Shown in pieces: positions 2,104 through 30,440 of a DNA stretch of 30,440 nt. This stretch comes from a virus. Within the stretch, counting starts at the first letter, position 1, and each line of letters opens with the position of its first letter. The stretch covers positions 1 through 30,440 of IMG/VR virus record IMGVR_UViG_3300044731_000442; one strand, 5' to 3'. The translations under genes were made by a program, and so were the position numbers. The notes beneath the pieces were generated by a model. It saw only the letters and a list, made by a program, of their open reading frames with translations. It did no database searches and was not told where the DNA came from.

Positions 2104-3881
2104 TGAGCGCACAAAATAAAATAGAGGGCCAAGGAAACAAAGCAATGCAGGTCATGCTTGCCCAGTACCAACCCGTGGCAGCAGTTGAGAACTACGACCG
2201 CAAGGGATGGCTGTCTTATGGATCGGACAACCTTTACCCGCAGTACTTGAAAAGTCTTGCAAAAACTTCACCCGTTCATGGTGCGCTAATCAAAGGTATT
2301 GCCGACATGATAGCGGGCAAATCGATAACCGCCACAAGCGTTATTGACCAAGGCAAGATGAAGGTGTTGAGGGTTGACAGGGTGTGGAGATCAATTTGCA
2401 ACGACATCGAAATGTACGGAGGGTTCTACATCGAGCGTATCAAAACACTCGACCGCCAAGGCATTGCCCGTATTGAGCACTTGCCTTTTGAAAATTGCCG
2501 CTTGTGGGTGGACGATGAGTTCAATATCTGCGGGGTTTACTACTCACGCGACTGGAGCCAAGCCAATAAAAAGATCAACAAACCAAGGCCCATTCCGATC
2601 GCAAAAAAGGACAGCGAAAACGCATCCGATGTTGTTATTTCGTTTGCCGACGAAACCACGAGCAGCCTATATCCTGAGCCATCGTATCAGTCTGCCATCA
2701 ATTACATCGAACTTGATCGCAAGATTTCGCAGTTCCACGTCAGCAATGTGATGAACGGCTTTTTCCCCTCGACCATTATATCGCTATTCAACGGAGAACC
2801 TGACCCCGTTGATAAGCAACAAATGCAATCGTACTTTAATAAGCAAACGGGTGCGGAGAATGCGGGTCAGATCATGCTTTTATTCAACGAAGCAGGCTCA
2901 ACACCCCCAACGATTGAATCATTCGGGCTTACCGATGCTGATAAAATGTACGAATCCCTTTCGCGTCAGGCAACGGAGAAAATAATGGTGGGGCATCTTG
3001 TCACAACACCGCTTATCTTCGGTATTCGTGGCGAGGGAACAGGGTTCTCATCCAACACCGATGAACTAAAGCAAGGTTTCAAAATCTTCACCGAAAACGT
3101 GATCGAGGTGTATCGCAAAAAAGCACTTGATGTATTGTCGGAAGCGACCGAAATCTATACTTTCCAAGTCACACCAAATAGCTACTTCATTGACGATCCA
3201 AAACCCGTTGAGAAGCCTGCAACGCAATTATCAAAACACGACATGACCGATGATGATGAGGACGCATGGTTGAACCACTTGTATGAGCGCGGTGAAACCA
3301 TTGACGAAGATGAATGGGAACTAGACGATGAACTAAGCGGAGAGGCGGGAGACGTTGAAACCGAAGAACAAATCCAAAAGGAAATTGCAGCGAAGAACCA
3401 AGGTGCCGTTGAAATGTACAGGGCATACGCCAACCCCGACGCGAAAAGCGAAATGGATGGAGGTATTTACAAGGTGCGTTATGGTTATCCGACCAAATTC
3501 AGCGACAACTCACGAAGATTTTGCAAGGCAATGGCGGAAGCCGCAAGCGCGGGCGTCGTGTATCGGTATGAGGATATCATTCGCATGGGCAATGAGGGCG
3601 TGAATGGAGGTTTTGCCCCTGCGGGCGAATCCACTTATTCCATTTTCCTTTACAAAGGCGGAGCGAACTGCCATCATTTTTGGTCACGAAAAGTTTACCG
3701 CCGAAAGCGTGACGCGAAAGGTAAGATATTGAAGAATGAAGGTTTGAAAAACGACGAGCGAATCAGTCAATCCCAAGCGAATAAAGCAGGCTTTGATTTC
3801 AAGGATTCGCAGTACTGGAGAAAAGCATCGACACGACCTATTGACATGCCAAATAACGGCTATAAAAACCCACAAGAATAA
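2103..3881 (+). CDS. Portal protein with extra C-terminal Cys/His domain
   Basis: This 592-residue protein would form the dodecameric DNA channel at the capsid vertex. Residues about 30-370 look like a portal of the type found in Bacteroidota phages: an early RKGWLSYGSDNLYPQYL segment, a conserved helical middle, and a late TTPLIFGIRGEGTGFSSN segment. A very acidic linker follows (about 379-425). The last 165 residues form a separate domain with an R-R-F-C motif at 471-474 and a G-G-A-N-C-H-H-F-W motif at 519-527, resembling domains attached to head morphogenesis proteins in related phages. The gene is coupled to its neighbours by one-base TAATG overlaps on both sides. I am confident of the portal call from order and sequence style, less so of the role of the C-terminal domain. 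Confidence 0.82.
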   Translation: MSAQNKIEGQGNKAMQVMLAQYQPVAAVENYDRKGWLSYGSDNLYPQYLKSLAKTSPVHGALIKGIADMIAGKSITATSVIDQGKMKVLRVDRVWRSICNDIEMYGGFYIERIKTLDRQGIARIEHLPFENCRLWVDDEFNICGVYYSRDWSQANKKINKPRPIPIAKKDSENASDVVISFADETTSSLYPEPSYQSAINYIELDRKISQFHVSNVMNGFFPSTIISLFNGEPDPVDKQQMQSYFNKQTGAENAGQIMLLFNEAGSTPPTIESFGLTDADKMYESLSRQATEKIMVGHLVTTPLIFGIRGEGTGFSSNTDELKQGFKIFTENVIEVYRKKALDVLSEATEIYTFQVTPNSYFIDDPKPVEKPATQLSKHDMTDDDEDAWLNHLYERGETIDEDEWELDDELSGEAGDVETEEQIQKEIAAKNQGAVEMYRAYANPDAKSEMDGGIYKVRYGYPTKFSDNSRRFCKAMAEAASAGVVYRYEDIIRMGNEGVNGGFAPAGESTYSIFLYKGGANCHHFWSRKVYRRKRDAKGKILKNEGLKNDERISQSQANKAGFDFKDSQYWRKASTRPIDMPNNGYKNPQE

Positions 3882-9057: not shown

Positions 9058-9855
9058 TTAGCGTCTGCGGCTTTTGGCCTCTTTTGGAAAGGTAATAAGG
9101 TTGAACATTTCGCTCATCCGATCAATGATCCGTTCGCCATATCGCTCACGTAGCTGTGGTGCGGTCAGGTTGCTAATCATGTGCGTGGTCAAAGGAACTG
9201 CGGAACGATAACGGACTTCCAAAATTCTTTCCATCACGTTCTTTTGCGTTCCGAAATAGCGGCCATCGCTTTCAATACCAAGATCATCGAAGCACCATCC
9301 CGCCTTGGTGAATCCGTACCGGTTCAACTCGTGGATTTCAGAATCTTTGAAGTACTTTACAATGGCATCTTCACCTCCCTTTGCAAAAAGGGCCGCAATG
9401 TCGGAGCAGTCGGCCATACGATAGGCGTGTTTGGCCTGAGATTGCCGAAAGCGATTCATGATGAAGGTCTTTCCAATTCCTACGCCACCAAACAGGAACA
9501 ATCCCTTTTTGAGCGAATAGGATGGATCGAGCGTTTCAAAGTCCGGATCATTCCCGAAGTACAGGCACGCACGCTTGACCACCTCTTTGTTTGTCTCGTC
9601 AACGTGAAAGGTTGGGTCCTCTGAAAGTTCATCCCACAAATCCTGCGCACTGATGTCGTGAATTGTAAGCGGGGCCTCTTTGACAGCCTGCCAGTGGTTC
9701 TGCAGACGAATCTTGGCCTCTTTTGCGCGGGTGGCTTGGGCAAGGATTGCCTGTTTTTCTTCTTCGGTCAAAATCTCATGCTCCGAACTTACCGAAGTCG
9801 GCTCCGTGGGGCGCAGGTTCAATGCGTCCATTTGTTCTTTGATTGTTGTTTCCAT
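9058..9855 (-). CDS. dnaC: DnaC-like helicase loader ATPase
   Basis: The 265-residue AAA+ protein has a Walker A (GGVGIGKT, 123-130) and a Walker B (WCFDDLG, 187-193). Further on lie a TTHMISNLT segment and LRERYGERIIDRMSEMFNLI, the sensor and arginine-finger region of DnaC/DnaI loaders. The N-terminal 110 residues would contact the replicative helicase, and since no helicase gene is seen here the partner is probably the host DnaB. It lies directly after the replication initiator and overlaps its 3' end by 80 bases on the same strand. That pairing, initiator then loader, mirrors lambda O and P. Confidence 0.88.
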   Translation of the reverse strand: METTIKEQMDALNLRPTEPTSVSSEHEILTEEEKQAILAQATRAKEAKIRLQNHWQAVKEAPLTIHDISAQDLWDELSEDPTFHVDETNKEVVKRACLYFGNDPDFETLDPSYSLKKGLFLFGGVGIGKTFIMNRFRQSQAKHAYRMADCSDIAALFAKGGEDAIVKYFKDSEIHELNRYGFTKAGWCFDDLGIESDGRYFGTQKNVMERILEVRYRSAVPLTTHMISNLTAPQLRERYGERIIDRMSEMFNLITFPKEAKSRRR

Positions 9856-10507
9856 TTGTTGGTTGGTTTTTATGTGGCAAGAAGATTCCCTGCCAGTTGT
9901 TTTTAATTGAATTGTACACTGCTTCGATGAATACCGCTTCGCCCCATCGATCCCATTCGGCCATGGCTTGTTTTAGCCCAATGGCTGTGTAAGGTTTAAC
10001 GCGAAGTTGCTTCCGGTGGCTTATGTAGTCCTCCATCGCTTTGATGGCTTCTTGGCTCTTGAATGGGAAAAGTTCCATCCATTCAGCAATCGGTTTTTTT
10101 GCGGGTGCTTTTTCTTTTTCATTCTCTATTTCATTTTCATTTTCATCTTCATTTTCCATATGTTCAACATATGTTTTTGATATGTTTTTCATATGAGATT
10201 TACTCTTATTGCTATTTTTCCTATTAGCAGAGCGGCTTTCAGAATATTTCTTGCGTTTTTCAATTTCAGATTTCAAACGCTCATTGAAAAAAATGTTCGC
10301 CTCGGCGTCGAAAATGAATTTGCTTTTGACTGAGTTATGTACTTCATGTGAATTACATATGTTTTTCATATGTTTTTCAGAAATGCCACCTTTTGACGCT
10401 TGCACACAAAGGCATCGAATGTATGCGCCAACTTCTTCATTGGTCATATCGCAGACACCGGTAAAAAAGTCTTGGTGGTAAAAAAGAAATGCGGGGTCTT
10501 TCGCCAT
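9776..10507 (-). CDS. Replication initiator (DUF1376-like)
   Basis: The product has 243 residues from the ATG at 10507. A GTG at 10531 is possible but would lie in the terminator stem before the gene. The first 60 residues (MAKDPAFLFYHQDFFTG, then TNEEVGAYIRCLCVQ) have the winged-helix pattern of phage initiation proteins with a DUF1376/YdaU-like domain. A basic stretch (about 85-105) and an acidic Glu/Asn linker (about 117-133) follow. The C-terminal part (PIAEWMELFPFKSQEAIKAM, later NNWQGIF) is of the type that contacts helicase or loader. The gene contains two 11-bp repeat clusters that look like iterons (see 10157-10200 and 10334-10382). It is followed by the DnaC-like loader with an 80-base overlap. 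Confidence 0.78.
   Translation of the reverse strand: MAKDPAFLFYHQDFFTGVCDMTNEEVGAYIRCLCVQASKGGISEKHMKNICNSHEVHNSVKSKFIFDAEANIFFNERLKSEIEKRKKYSESRSANRKNSNKSKSHMKNISKTYVEHMENEDENENEIENEKEKAPAKKPIAEWMELFPFKSQEAIKAMEDYISHRKQLRVKPYTAIGLKQAMAEWDRWGEAVFIEAVYNSIKNNWQGIFLPHKNQPTNGNNNQRTNGRIEPAPHGADFGKFGA
10157..10200. repeat. Iteron-like array 1, 11-bp period
   Basis: Four units begin at 10157, 10168, 10179 and 10190, exactly 11 bases apart: CATATGTTCAA, CATATGTTTTT, GATATGTTTTT and CATATGAGATT. Eleven is not a multiple of three, so the units fall in different reading frames and the encoded protein is not repeated. This points to selection on the DNA. A run of ATTTTC-type repeats (about 10120-10156) adjoins it and is AT-rich, as a melting region would be. 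Confidence 0.7.
10334..10382. repeat. Iteron-like array 2, 11-bp period
   Basis: Units begin at 10345, 10356 and 10367 in register: CATGTGAATTA, CATATGTTTTT, CATATGTTTTT. A weaker unit stands on the upstream side (10334, GTTATGTACTT, 7 of 11 matches) and a degenerate one at 10378. The consensus CATATGTTTTT is the same as in array 1, 139 bases away in the same gene and the same orientation. The two together are a good candidate for the replication origin. Confidence 0.68.
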
Positions 10508-10676: not shown

Positions 10677-11417
10677 TCAATATCTCAAATTTACCTTTTC
10701 GCGGCGGCGGTAGTTGTAAATTTCTTCGATCAAAGAAACGTACTGATTGGTAGTTGAGCAGTTAGTCATTGCAGTAGGTTGTACTTTCAACTTTTGCAGA
10801 AACTCGGTGAACTCAAAGTTTGGGTTCTTGAATAGTTGCAACATAGCCAAGATAAAAGACCTACGCTTCCATTCCTCATAAAATGGAGCGACAAGCATAA
10901 TCTTCTCGATAGTTTTGCACGCTCCGTTGTAGTTTTTAATCTTAAAATCACCACTAAAAAACACCTGGGTAGGATTGGCCAACTGAGAACCATTCAAAAG
11001 CCACATACATTCATAGTGGCCTATGCCATAGGTATCTTTGAACTCTTTATATTTGATGTAATTGTCAAGTCCTAACTTGCAGTATCCGTCCAAATAATCG
11101 TCCGAAGTCCAAGTCTTTGAGTTTTGGTTAAGGATGTGGACTTCATTCAATCCATAACCTTGGCACATGACGTAGTGCAATGGTAGATTGAGTTCTTGAA
11201 TAACATCGAAGCGGTGTTGACCATCAATGATCTCATAGTTCTCATTTACTACAATGATCGTGAATAGGTAATTCTCTGCCATCGACTTTTTCAACCGATT
11301 GATGTGGAGCAGGTTTTTGTTTCGGTTGCCATCTATTGACTTGAATAGAAAGTAATCTGTTGTCGTGTGAACTTGGTTACTATGTTTCACCATTGGTTCT
11401 ACTTTTAATTTGTTCAT
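10677..11417 (-). CDS. ParB/Srx-fold domain protein
   Basis: The product has 246 residues. The segment YEIIDGQHRFDVIQELNLPLHYVM (about 61-84) is the classic ParB-type motif with D-G-Q-H-R at 65-69. That fold binds nucleotide and in different relatives is a nuclease, a CTPase or a DNA-modification partner. The rest is helical with aromatic residues and matches no family I know. It lacks a recognisable ParB HTH, and no ParA gene is present, so plasmid-type partition is unlikely. It lies upstream of the initiator and is separated from it by a terminator. Phage proteins of this type are common in Bacteroidota, and their role is not settled. Confidence 0.72.
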   Translation of the reverse strand: MNKLKVEPMVKHSNQVHTTTDYFLFKSIDGNRNKNLLHINRLKKSMAENYLFTIIVVNENYEIIDGQHRFDVIQELNLPLHYVMCQGYGLNEVHILNQNSKTWTSDDYLDGYCKLGLDNYIKYKEFKDTYGIGHYECMWLLNGSQLANPTQVFFSGDFKIKNYNGACKTIEKIMLVAPFYEEWKRRSFILAMLQLFKNPNFEFTEFLQKLKVQPTAMTNCSTTNQYVSLIEEIYNYRRREKVNLRY

Positions 11418-12208: not shown

Positions 12209-12736
12209 TTATTTGTTTGTTTGATTTGTAAGCCTGTTGTAAACCTTCGCAAGTCGGCCATCCCCTTGCTGTTCAAAGATAGTGCATAAGTGCCGAACAC
12301 ATGGAACGATCAAAGCATCTTCGACCGAGATGAGTTCGTCAATCTTCTTAACCGCGTGCAAGATAGTGGAGTGGTTGTAATCCATCCCGTTTACCGAGGT
12401 CATCTGACCCAGTGTAAACCTTGTCGTGTTTCGAAGTGCCCAAAACATTATCATGCGGGCCGTTGCGTAGTTTCGGATGCGACGTTTCTTCATCCACACC
12501 CGGCTGCTCCCGAAGTACTGCTCCACAACGCTAATAATCAACACCATCTTATTGTGGTCAGCTATTCCCGCAGGCAGTTCACCTCCCTTATGCAAGAGGT
12601 GTGCGTCATTCATTGAAACCGCGATGTACTTCTTGCCATCGAAGTAAAGCATCATGGCCCGTGGTAGCTGCGCTTCATAAACAGCCACCTCCCCGACAGC
12701 GATCAGAGTGTTGGGGTCGATGTCCTCGATCTTCAT
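12209..12736 (-). CDS. DnaA domain IV-like DNA-binding protein
   Basis: The product has 175 residues. Residues about 68-136 match the C-terminal DNA-binding domain of DnaA: a first helix (VVEQYFG near 71-77), RNYATARMIMFWALRNTTRFTLGQM, and the signature helix NHSTILHAVKKIDELI (121-136). No AAA+ ATPase domain precedes it; the first 65 residues are a different, unrecognised domain. The protein could bind DnaA boxes in host or phage DNA, either helping to recruit host factors or blocking host initiation. It sits in the early replication and recombination block, with a four-base overlap with the gene upstream. Confidence 0.78.
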   Translation of the reverse strand: MKIEDIDPNTLIAVGEVAVYEAQLPRAMMLYFDGKKYIAVSMNDAHLLHKGGELPAGIADHNKMVLIISVVEQYFGSSRVWMKKRRIRNYATARMIMFWALRNTTRFTLGQMTSVNGMDYNHSTILHAVKKIDELISVEDALIVPCVRHLCTIFEQQGDGRLAKVYNRLTNQTNK

Positions 12737-15473: not shown

Positions 15474-15503
15474 CAAATATAGAACAAGTTTCTTTTATAG
15501 CAA
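15474..15503 (-). promoter_or_regulatory. Early promoter, TTG-N19-TATATTTG
   Basis: On the minus strand TTG (15501-15503) and TATATTTG (15474-15481) are 19 bases apart, the best match in the window to the Bacteroidota -33/-7 promoter. The ATG of the first early gene lies 39 bases downstream of the box. It points into the long minus-strand block and away from the sigma-like gene. Confidence 0.8.
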
Positions 15504-15532
15504 GTTTTTTTTATACTTTTTTCAAAGATATT

Positions 15533-16015
15533 TTGGAAAGTTTTGAAAATCAAATAAATATCCATTACAAAAAGTGGTTGAAATTTGCCAAGAAATTGTC
15601 AAACGATGATGAGGCGGTGGATATTTTGAACGACCTATTGGAGAAACTGCTCACCCGTTACAGGGATAAGGTTGAAGAATTGTCCAAGAGGGGCGAAGTT
15701 GACAAGTACGTGTGTCGTGGGATAATGAACAAGGCACTCGACAGGCGGAGAAGCTACCGCATGGTCGAGTTGAAGATTGACCTAGTGGACCAAGGCAGCG
15801 ACGCGATGGAAGTGGAGGCAAAGATGCAGTTGATTGAGTCGGGTTTGCGTTCGCTGACGTATGGGGATCGCGCTTTGATCCGTTACGAACTGGCGAATGT
15901 GGGAACGATTAAGCAGTTGGCCGTTGAGATAGGGGAGGACCCCGAATACCTCCGCCAAAAGTTGCATAGAGCGAAACAAAGATTGAAAGAAAATATATGG
16001 CATTTAGAGCAGTAG
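15533..16015 (+). CDS. ECF-like RNA polymerase sigma factor
   Basis: The product has about 160 residues. A region 2-like helix pair (WLKFAKKLSNDDEAVDILND, then YVCRGIMNKALDRRRSY) is followed by a region 4 HTH (LTYGDRALIRYEL, GTIKQLAVEIGEDPEYLRQKLHRAKQRL). Both parts of an ECF-type sigma are therefore present. The start is uncertain: there is no ATG. I favour the TTG at 15533 because the GTG at 15452 would place 27 Phe-rich residues across the early promoter. The gene stands opposite the early operon and ahead of all rightward genes, so it could switch host polymerase to late promoters. Its end overlaps the next gene by 19 bases. Confidence 0.72.
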   Translation: MESFENQINIHYKKWLKFAKKLSNDDEAVDILNDLLEKLLTRYRDKVEELSKRGEVDKYVCRGIMNKALDRRRSYRMVELKIDLVDQGSDAMEVEAKMQLIESGLRSLTYGDRALIRYELANVGTIKQLAVEIGEDPEYLRQKLHRAKQRLKENIWHLEQ

Positions 16016-29804: not shown

Positions 29805-30389
29805 ATGAGTATCAAAGCAAAAATTCAAGAAGTTCTCGACAAATGGAAAGTCCAGTTGAGCGTTGAAGAACCCAAAAAAGTGGAACTCGCAGCCACGGCA
29901 AAAGCGGCTGACGGCTCTGAGATCGGTACACCCACAGCGTTCGAAGTTGGCGCGGAAGTGTACGTGATGATCGAAGATGCGCCACAGGCAGTTCCTGATG
30001 GAGAAATCGCAATGGAAGATGGCAGCATTGTCGTTGTGAAAGACGGCAAGATCGAATCCATCACACCGAAGGCAGAAGAAATGTCAAGTGACGTTCTCGC
30101 AGCGTTTGAAAAGTTGGCCGAACGTGTAAGCGTTTTGGAAGGACAGAATTCAGCGCAAGCCACCGAACTTTCAACAGCCAACGAAAAGATTGCCGAATTG
30201 ACCACCAAACTTTCAGCAGCCGAAAAGAAAGCGGTTGACGCTGAAAAGAAAGTGGTGGAACTTGGAAAGCAAGCGGCCACTGCATCGGTAAAGGATAAGA
30301 CCGCTGTTGAACTGAAAAAGGAAAAAGAAAAGCAACCAAAAGATTTCTCACGCATGACCTACGTGGAGCGTGTGTTGAACCAAAACTAA
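29805..30389 (+). CDS. Scaffold-like capsid assembly protein
   Basis: The product has 194 residues from the ATG at 29805; an upstream in-frame ATG is inside TerL and is rejected. It has an N-terminal helix (SIKAKIQEVLDKWKVQL), a beta-like middle with DGEIAMEDGSIVVVKDGKIE (about 66-85), a coiled coil rich in Ala, Glu and Lys (about 95-165), and a basic tail with a conserved end (FSRMTYVERVLNQN). Coiled coil, acidic middle and place immediately before the capsid gene fit a scaffold, the probable substrate of the XkdF-like protease. The phage-encoded middle motif recurs in capsid-adjacent proteins of Bacteroidota phages. Confidence 0.72.
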   Translation: MSIKAKIQEVLDKWKVQLSVEEPKKVELAATAKAADGSEIGTPTAFEVGAEVYVMIEDAPQAVPDGEIAMEDGSIVVVKDGKIESITPKAEEMSSDVLAAFEKLAERVSVLEGQNSAQATELSTANEKIAELTTKLSAAEKKAVDAEKKVVELGKQAATASVKDKTAVELKKEKEKQPKDFSRMTYVERVLNQN

Positions 30390-30440
30390 CAACAAAAAAG
30401 TAACAAAAAGAAATGGCAACTACTACCAATTTAACAACTA
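30304..30440. repeat. Terminal direct repeat, right copy
   Basis: This repeats 1-137 with one silent change (30314). It holds the end of the scaffold-like gene and the first bases of the capsid gene. Confidence 0.9.
30413..30440 (+). CDS. Major capsid protein, 5' fragment
   Basis: The first nine codons of the capsid gene, identical to 110-137, are cut by the window end. It is the same gene as 110-1003 on the circular map. Confidence 0.85.

Follow-up and report, generated by a model that had tools for sequence, protein, structure and literature searches.

A probable replication origin inside a phage initiator gene, with matching iterons in the linker and in the codons of a predicted helix-turn-helix

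In bacteriophage lambda, iterons and an AT-rich tract lie in the middle of gene O, between the parts encoding the DNA-binding and C-terminal domains, and the loader gene P is next to it (PMC7466680). The Rep protein of plasmid pSK41 binds, through a winged-helix N-domain, Rep boxes located centrally in rep, and the linker encoded by this origin is dispensable; in a chimeric Rep of pPR9, the N-domain and the origin were exchanged as a unit (PMC5703833). The phage locus analyzed here resembles lambda O and ori-lambda, as well as the lambdoid Stx phages, in its layout of iterons, AT-rich tract, and loader gene, and it resembles the RepA_N proteins pSK41 Rep and pPR9 Rep in having central intragenic boxes and linker DNA as origin. 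However, the iterons of lambda are 18 bp long and follow each other at steps of ~20–24 bp (lambda record), whereas the phage locus has a hexamer core at 11 bp, and the codons of the lambda O N-domain hold no iteron copy (best match 9/11, the null level), whereas a second array is found there in the phage gene. The RepA_N proteins, for their part, are plasmid initiators with a C-domain that contacts the DnaG primase, and their boxes are described as central only. To judge from the sequence, a description of the phage locus as a lambda-O-like, and also pSK41-Rep-like, intragenic origin appears largely right; new here are a repeat unit of only 11 bp, a second array in the helix-turn-helix (HTH) codons, and the switching of this array together with the linker array. 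No published description of these iterons was found in the open-access literature.

The window, by which we mean the whole stretch of DNA analyzed, is a virus record of 30,440 bases. It carries the same 137 bases at both ends (1–137 and 30304–30440, one mismatch) and is therefore probably a complete genome, either circular or terminally redundant. The initiator gene (9776–10507, minus strand, 243 codons) matches PHROG_678, "replication initiation O-like" (1e-11), and its end is overlapped by the gene directly downstream, which encodes a DnaC-like helicase loader (9058–9855, minus strand; PHROG_50 at 2.6e-16 and PHROG_3277 at 2.6e-12), as in the lambda-O type of layout. The first-pass annotation had proposed that initiator, iterons, and loader are arranged as in lambda, and both matches, along with the confinement of the repeats to the gene, support this. 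Several relatives also carry a gene for a DnaC-like loader or a DnaB-like helicase downstream of the initiator, and others carry a gene with no recognized function. The loader protein retrieved one distant relative only from the viral contigs, and the sole match to the window initiator among named phage records was an unannotated fecal contig. A relative in a contig of Flavobacterium caseinilyticum has an N-domain 73% identical to that of the window initiator, which supports the Bacteroidota host that had been suggested for this phage. Directly upstream of the initiator gene lies a gene for a ParB-like protein (10677–11417, minus strand; PHROG_12305, 6e-28).

Relatives of the window initiator share a conserved start, MAKDPAFLFY. 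AlphaFold2, run with 67 relatives, predicted a confident, winged-helix-like N-domain (residues 1–97), a low-confidence linker, and a C-terminal helical domain. The N-domain is modeled as helices at residues 11–18, 23–39, 44–50, and 54–61, a hairpin at 65–74, and a long helix at 76–97. In this predicted model, helices 44–50 and 54–61 followed by the hairpin form a winged-helix layout, in which we infer residues 54–61 to be the recognition helix. Among viral predicted structures, the window model matched DUF1376/Lin1244-like proteins and replication proteins (E 1e-4 to 1e-2), and this is the likeness to DUF1376, to Lin1244/Lin1753 (DUF4373), and to PHROG_9327, "primosomal protein." Fold matches in the PDB were weak, many of them winged helices, with solved plasmid-type initiators at Z about 3; Foldseek of the window model against the PDB returned nothing below E 0.001, and a PDB sequence search with the family profile gave no match. 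The window initiator had no Pfam match, neither to DUF1376 at the curated cut-off nor to RepA_N (PF06970). Its relatives match DUF1376 weakly, and one distant relative (L084) alone passes the cut-off. A C-terminal domain type with the motif KDWKAAVRTW, present in relatives, also occurs in DUF4373 phages of Vibrio and in the initiator of a Porphyromonas phage. For DUF1376, Lin1244, and Lin1753 proteins, an internal origin was not found in the literature searched. In one relative (L013), a Pfam toxin helical domain weakly matched the charged linker and the segment that follows, far below the cut-off, and was taken as chance.

Within the initiator gene, the hexamer CATATG recurs in two arrays at the coordinates and with the exact 11-base period reported in the first-pass annotation, all steps within each array being 11 bp. 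The N-terminal array (10345–10372, minus strand) has three units, reading on the gene strand CATATG (10367–10372), CATATG (10356–10361), and CACATG (10345–10350); it occupies codons 46–55, inside the codons of the predicted HTH (10325–10378, minus strand; AlphaFold2 helices 44–50 and 54–61). The linker array (10157–10195, minus strand) has four units, reading CATATG (10190–10195), CATATC (10179–10184), CATATG (10168–10173), and CATATG (10157–10162). Exact CATATG thus starts at 10157, 10168, 10190, 10356, and 10367, with one degenerate unit per array (on the window strand, GATATG at 10179 and CATGTG at 10345). What the first-pass annotation missed is that the two arrays are separate elements, one in HTH codons and the other in an unstructured linker. 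It had also assigned both arrays a common 11-mer, of which the CATATG core and the 11-bp spacing hold; the full CATATGTTTTT has just three exact copies (10168, 10356, and 10367), is not enriched across the window at ≤2 mismatches (21 seen, 17.5 expected), and includes a T-rich spacer that varies among relatives, in which only hexamer and spacing are conserved. Gene nucleotides 136, 147, and 158 match CATATG at ≥5 of 6 bases in 95, 100, and 82% of 39 relatives, respectively; the weaker flanking units proposed at 10334 and 10378 (gene nucleotides 169 and 125) do so in 0% and are not upheld. A count across the window found CATATG confined to the initiator gene, with none scattered elsewhere: there are five copies in 30.4 kb (~6 expected by chance), and all five lie within 216 bp of this gene. 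Simple arithmetic puts such clustering, with every one of five sites in 216 of 30,440 bases, far beyond chance.

The AT-rich, ATTTTC-type tract said to adjoin the repeats is located at 10110–10156, directly beside the linker array on its C-terminal side, and is conserved in relatives. On the gene strand, it consists of GAAAAT repeats (TRF: period 6, 7.8 copies) that encode ENEDENENE, with GAA and AAT codons conserved in relatives, and we presume it to be the DNA unwinding element. Among all 100-bp stretches of the genome, 10127–10226 ranks second lowest in stability. The least stable, 15475–15574, lies between divergent gene blocks, contains a 16-bp tandem repeat (15485–15515), and is a candidate promoter or regulatory region. 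Cumulative GC skew has its minimum near 13 kb, not 10.2 kb, which was counted against an origin at 10.2 kb, although switches in gene direction near 6.4 and 15.4 kb confound skew and make it uninformative here.

The first-pass annotation had reasoned that a period that is not a multiple of three rules out protein repetition. This argument does not stand, since three 11-bp steps make 11 codons; therefore, synonymous-codon shuffles were used, and these led to the same outcome. In the window initiator gene, five lag-11 pairs were seen against 1.6 under synonymous shuffling, and five were reached in 8 of 1,000 shuffles. Over 21 dereplicated genes, shuffled within each gene, 78 pairs were seen against 32.5 ± 4.4 (maximum 45). 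Codon choice at both arrays is also nearly fixed, the repeats being kept at silent sites in relatives: in class 1, the CATATG class, isoleucine is ATA in 48 of 50 genes at the HTH and in 42 of 42 in the linker, where tyrosine is TAT (55/55) and histidine is CAT (61/61), and in class 2, arginine at the HTH is AGG (11/11) and serine is TCG (10/11). By these synonymous-codon tests, there is selection on the DNA beyond that on the protein. The arrays could instead be a by-product of a repeated peptide, HMxNI...Y..HMENENEN, perhaps from internal duplication of the HTH segment, and the first units of the two window arrays are indeed in the same frame, so that HMKNI is encoded twice. We consider this hardly credible, however, because (i) the protein-preserving synonymous nulls are exceeded, (ii) the linker is predicted to be disordered, (iii) two relatives carry arrays at non-homologous places, and (iv) the class 2 repeat is read in different frames, as Thr-Ile-Arg at the HTH and as Lys-Pro-Leu-Gly in the linker.

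The relatives sampled comprised 35 close viral contigs and, at greater distance, 48 GTDB genome loci and two sets of viral loci, each set being the best 80 of >500 viral-contig matches in a scan; the relatives entering the counts are not independent of each other. A set of 22 related records, 736,601 bp in total, contains CATATG-N5-CATATG 42 times; 37 of these pairs are inside the initiator gene. The other five are all from one relative (L033), where they lie upstream of the initiator gene at a distance of ≤142 bp; the HTH codons of this relative are without an array. In another (L034), the first array begins ~10 codons closer to the gene start. Such movement of the arrays speaks for an element of the DNA and against a feature of the protein. 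In the CATATG class as a whole, the hexamer is mostly found at gene nucleotides 136, 147, and 158 and then in the linker ahead of the GAAAATGAAAAT tract. Loss of the repeats in relatives, named in the first-pass annotation as evidence against an origin, is seen in part: the linker repeats are kept throughout the class, but about a quarter of its members lack a clean N-terminal array. Four Bacillota relatives (L048, L049, L055, and L059) have no HTH copy of their iteron by counts of matching pairs, which serve better than a best-shared-11-mer test, too blunt for AT-rich genes.

It is also conceivable that the arrays are primarily an operator, at which the initiator or a phage repressor shuts off the replication operon, with the true origin elsewhere. 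Autorepression by the initiator is common in iteron plasmids, and in L033 the extra CATATG pairs, at 11-bp steps (2859–2975), are 43–142 bp upstream of the initiator gene at 3001, a possible place for a promoter. Yet the linker array lies within the gene in every case, ~300 bp in, with a conserved AT-rich tract after it, which is the layout of a melting origin; moreover, operator and origin functions could coexist. We therefore regard a primary operator role as unlikely.

At least three iteron classes share a common layout. Class 2 linkers carry ACCATTAGG/ACCTAATGG and class 3 linkers carry GCCACGGCA/GCCGTGGCA, both in the same linker position as in the CATATG class and with a similar AT-rich tail, and a few further repeat types occupy the equivalent position with a tail alike. 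Relatives with ACCATTAGG and GCCACGGCA carry their own iteron in the HTH codons as well as in the linker. With classes assigned from the linkers only (62, 11, and 20 genes in classes 1–3), matching of HTH-coding DNA to linkers of its own class exceeded the level of synonymous shuffles by factors of 2.0 (class 1), 5.65 (class 2), and 4.55 (class 3). Cross-class matching was ~0.8 to 1.6, except for a value of 3.4 between class 5 linkers and class 2 HTH codons, whose motifs overlap; classes 4 and 5 (3 and 5 genes) were too small for the class test. Class 2 genes read ACCATTAGG in frame 0 at the HTH and in other frames in the linker, so that the information is in the DNA, and neither protein repetition nor in-frame duplication explains it. 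In these sequences, the identity of the iteron switches between lineages in HTH and linker together.

When iteron class is mapped on a tree of the N-domain with the HTH columns excluded, 11 changes are needed, compared with 36 under shuffled labels, on few columns and with modest support. This agreement suggests that it is the N-domain that reads the iterons. C-terminal types, sorted by simple pattern classes only, recur across iteron classes, which suggests that N-domain and origin form one module. Another protein, such as host DnaA or a phage protein with DnaA domain IV, might read the iterons in place of the initiator, and the window does encode a DnaA domain IV match (3.7e-8). Nevertheless, CATATG does not resemble a DnaA box, and iteron identity tracks the initiator N-domain, which together make a different reader very improbable. 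The protein with this match (12209–12736, minus strand; 175 aa; Bac_DnaA_C, above cut-off) is without the ATPase part and might bind host DnaA boxes. DnaA boxes themselves were rejected as an explanation, as they are not enriched in the window (3 found, 4.9 expected) and are absent from the initiator gene.

The repeats are thus very probably the initiator's own landing sites. From the architecture of the locus, and with sequence as the basis throughout, the following steps can be proposed: (i) the winged-helix-like N-domain would bind the CATATG iterons, with bound copies aligned on one face of the DNA by the 11-bp step, which is one helical turn; (ii) binding at the four-unit linker array would melt the adjoining (GAAAAT)n tract; (iii) the C-terminal domain would recruit the helicase via the DnaC-like loader encoded next; and (iv) the array in the HTH codons would serve as an auxiliary binding cluster, either as part of the origin or as a site of self-repression. 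Taken as a whole, this account of an origin embedded in the initiator gene, with iterons bound by the N-domain, melting in the linker, loader recruitment, and an auxiliary HTH array, appears to us a well-favored explanation of the locus. It would provide a likely origin and mechanism for phage initiators that form a widespread and largely unnamed group in Bacteroidota, Bacillota, and other hosts. One piece of DNA is also under a double constraint here, the protein code overlapping a putative binding site inside the predicted DNA-binding domain. With the iteron readable from the gene alone, the specificity of an initiator would be predictable from its sequence.

More tentatively, and with somewhat greater doubt than belief on our part, there may be a large family of phage initiators in which the origin-reading HTH is encoded by DNA that is a copy of its own target sequence at the origin. 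Reader residues and site bases would then share one DNA, so that any change in origin specificity would have to alter reader and site together, and the recognition code could be read from the numerous reader–site pairs that occur in nature.

The intragenic-origin plan may extend to initiators whose N-domains are of other types. In Vibrio phage 1.167.O, inspection by eye of the region encoding the initiator linker (L168, 2900–3000) showed two copies of GGACAGCAGACGAAACA, a direct repeat of ~20 bp, before an AT-rich tract; in this initiator, which looks unrelated, the linker is possibly another intragenic origin.
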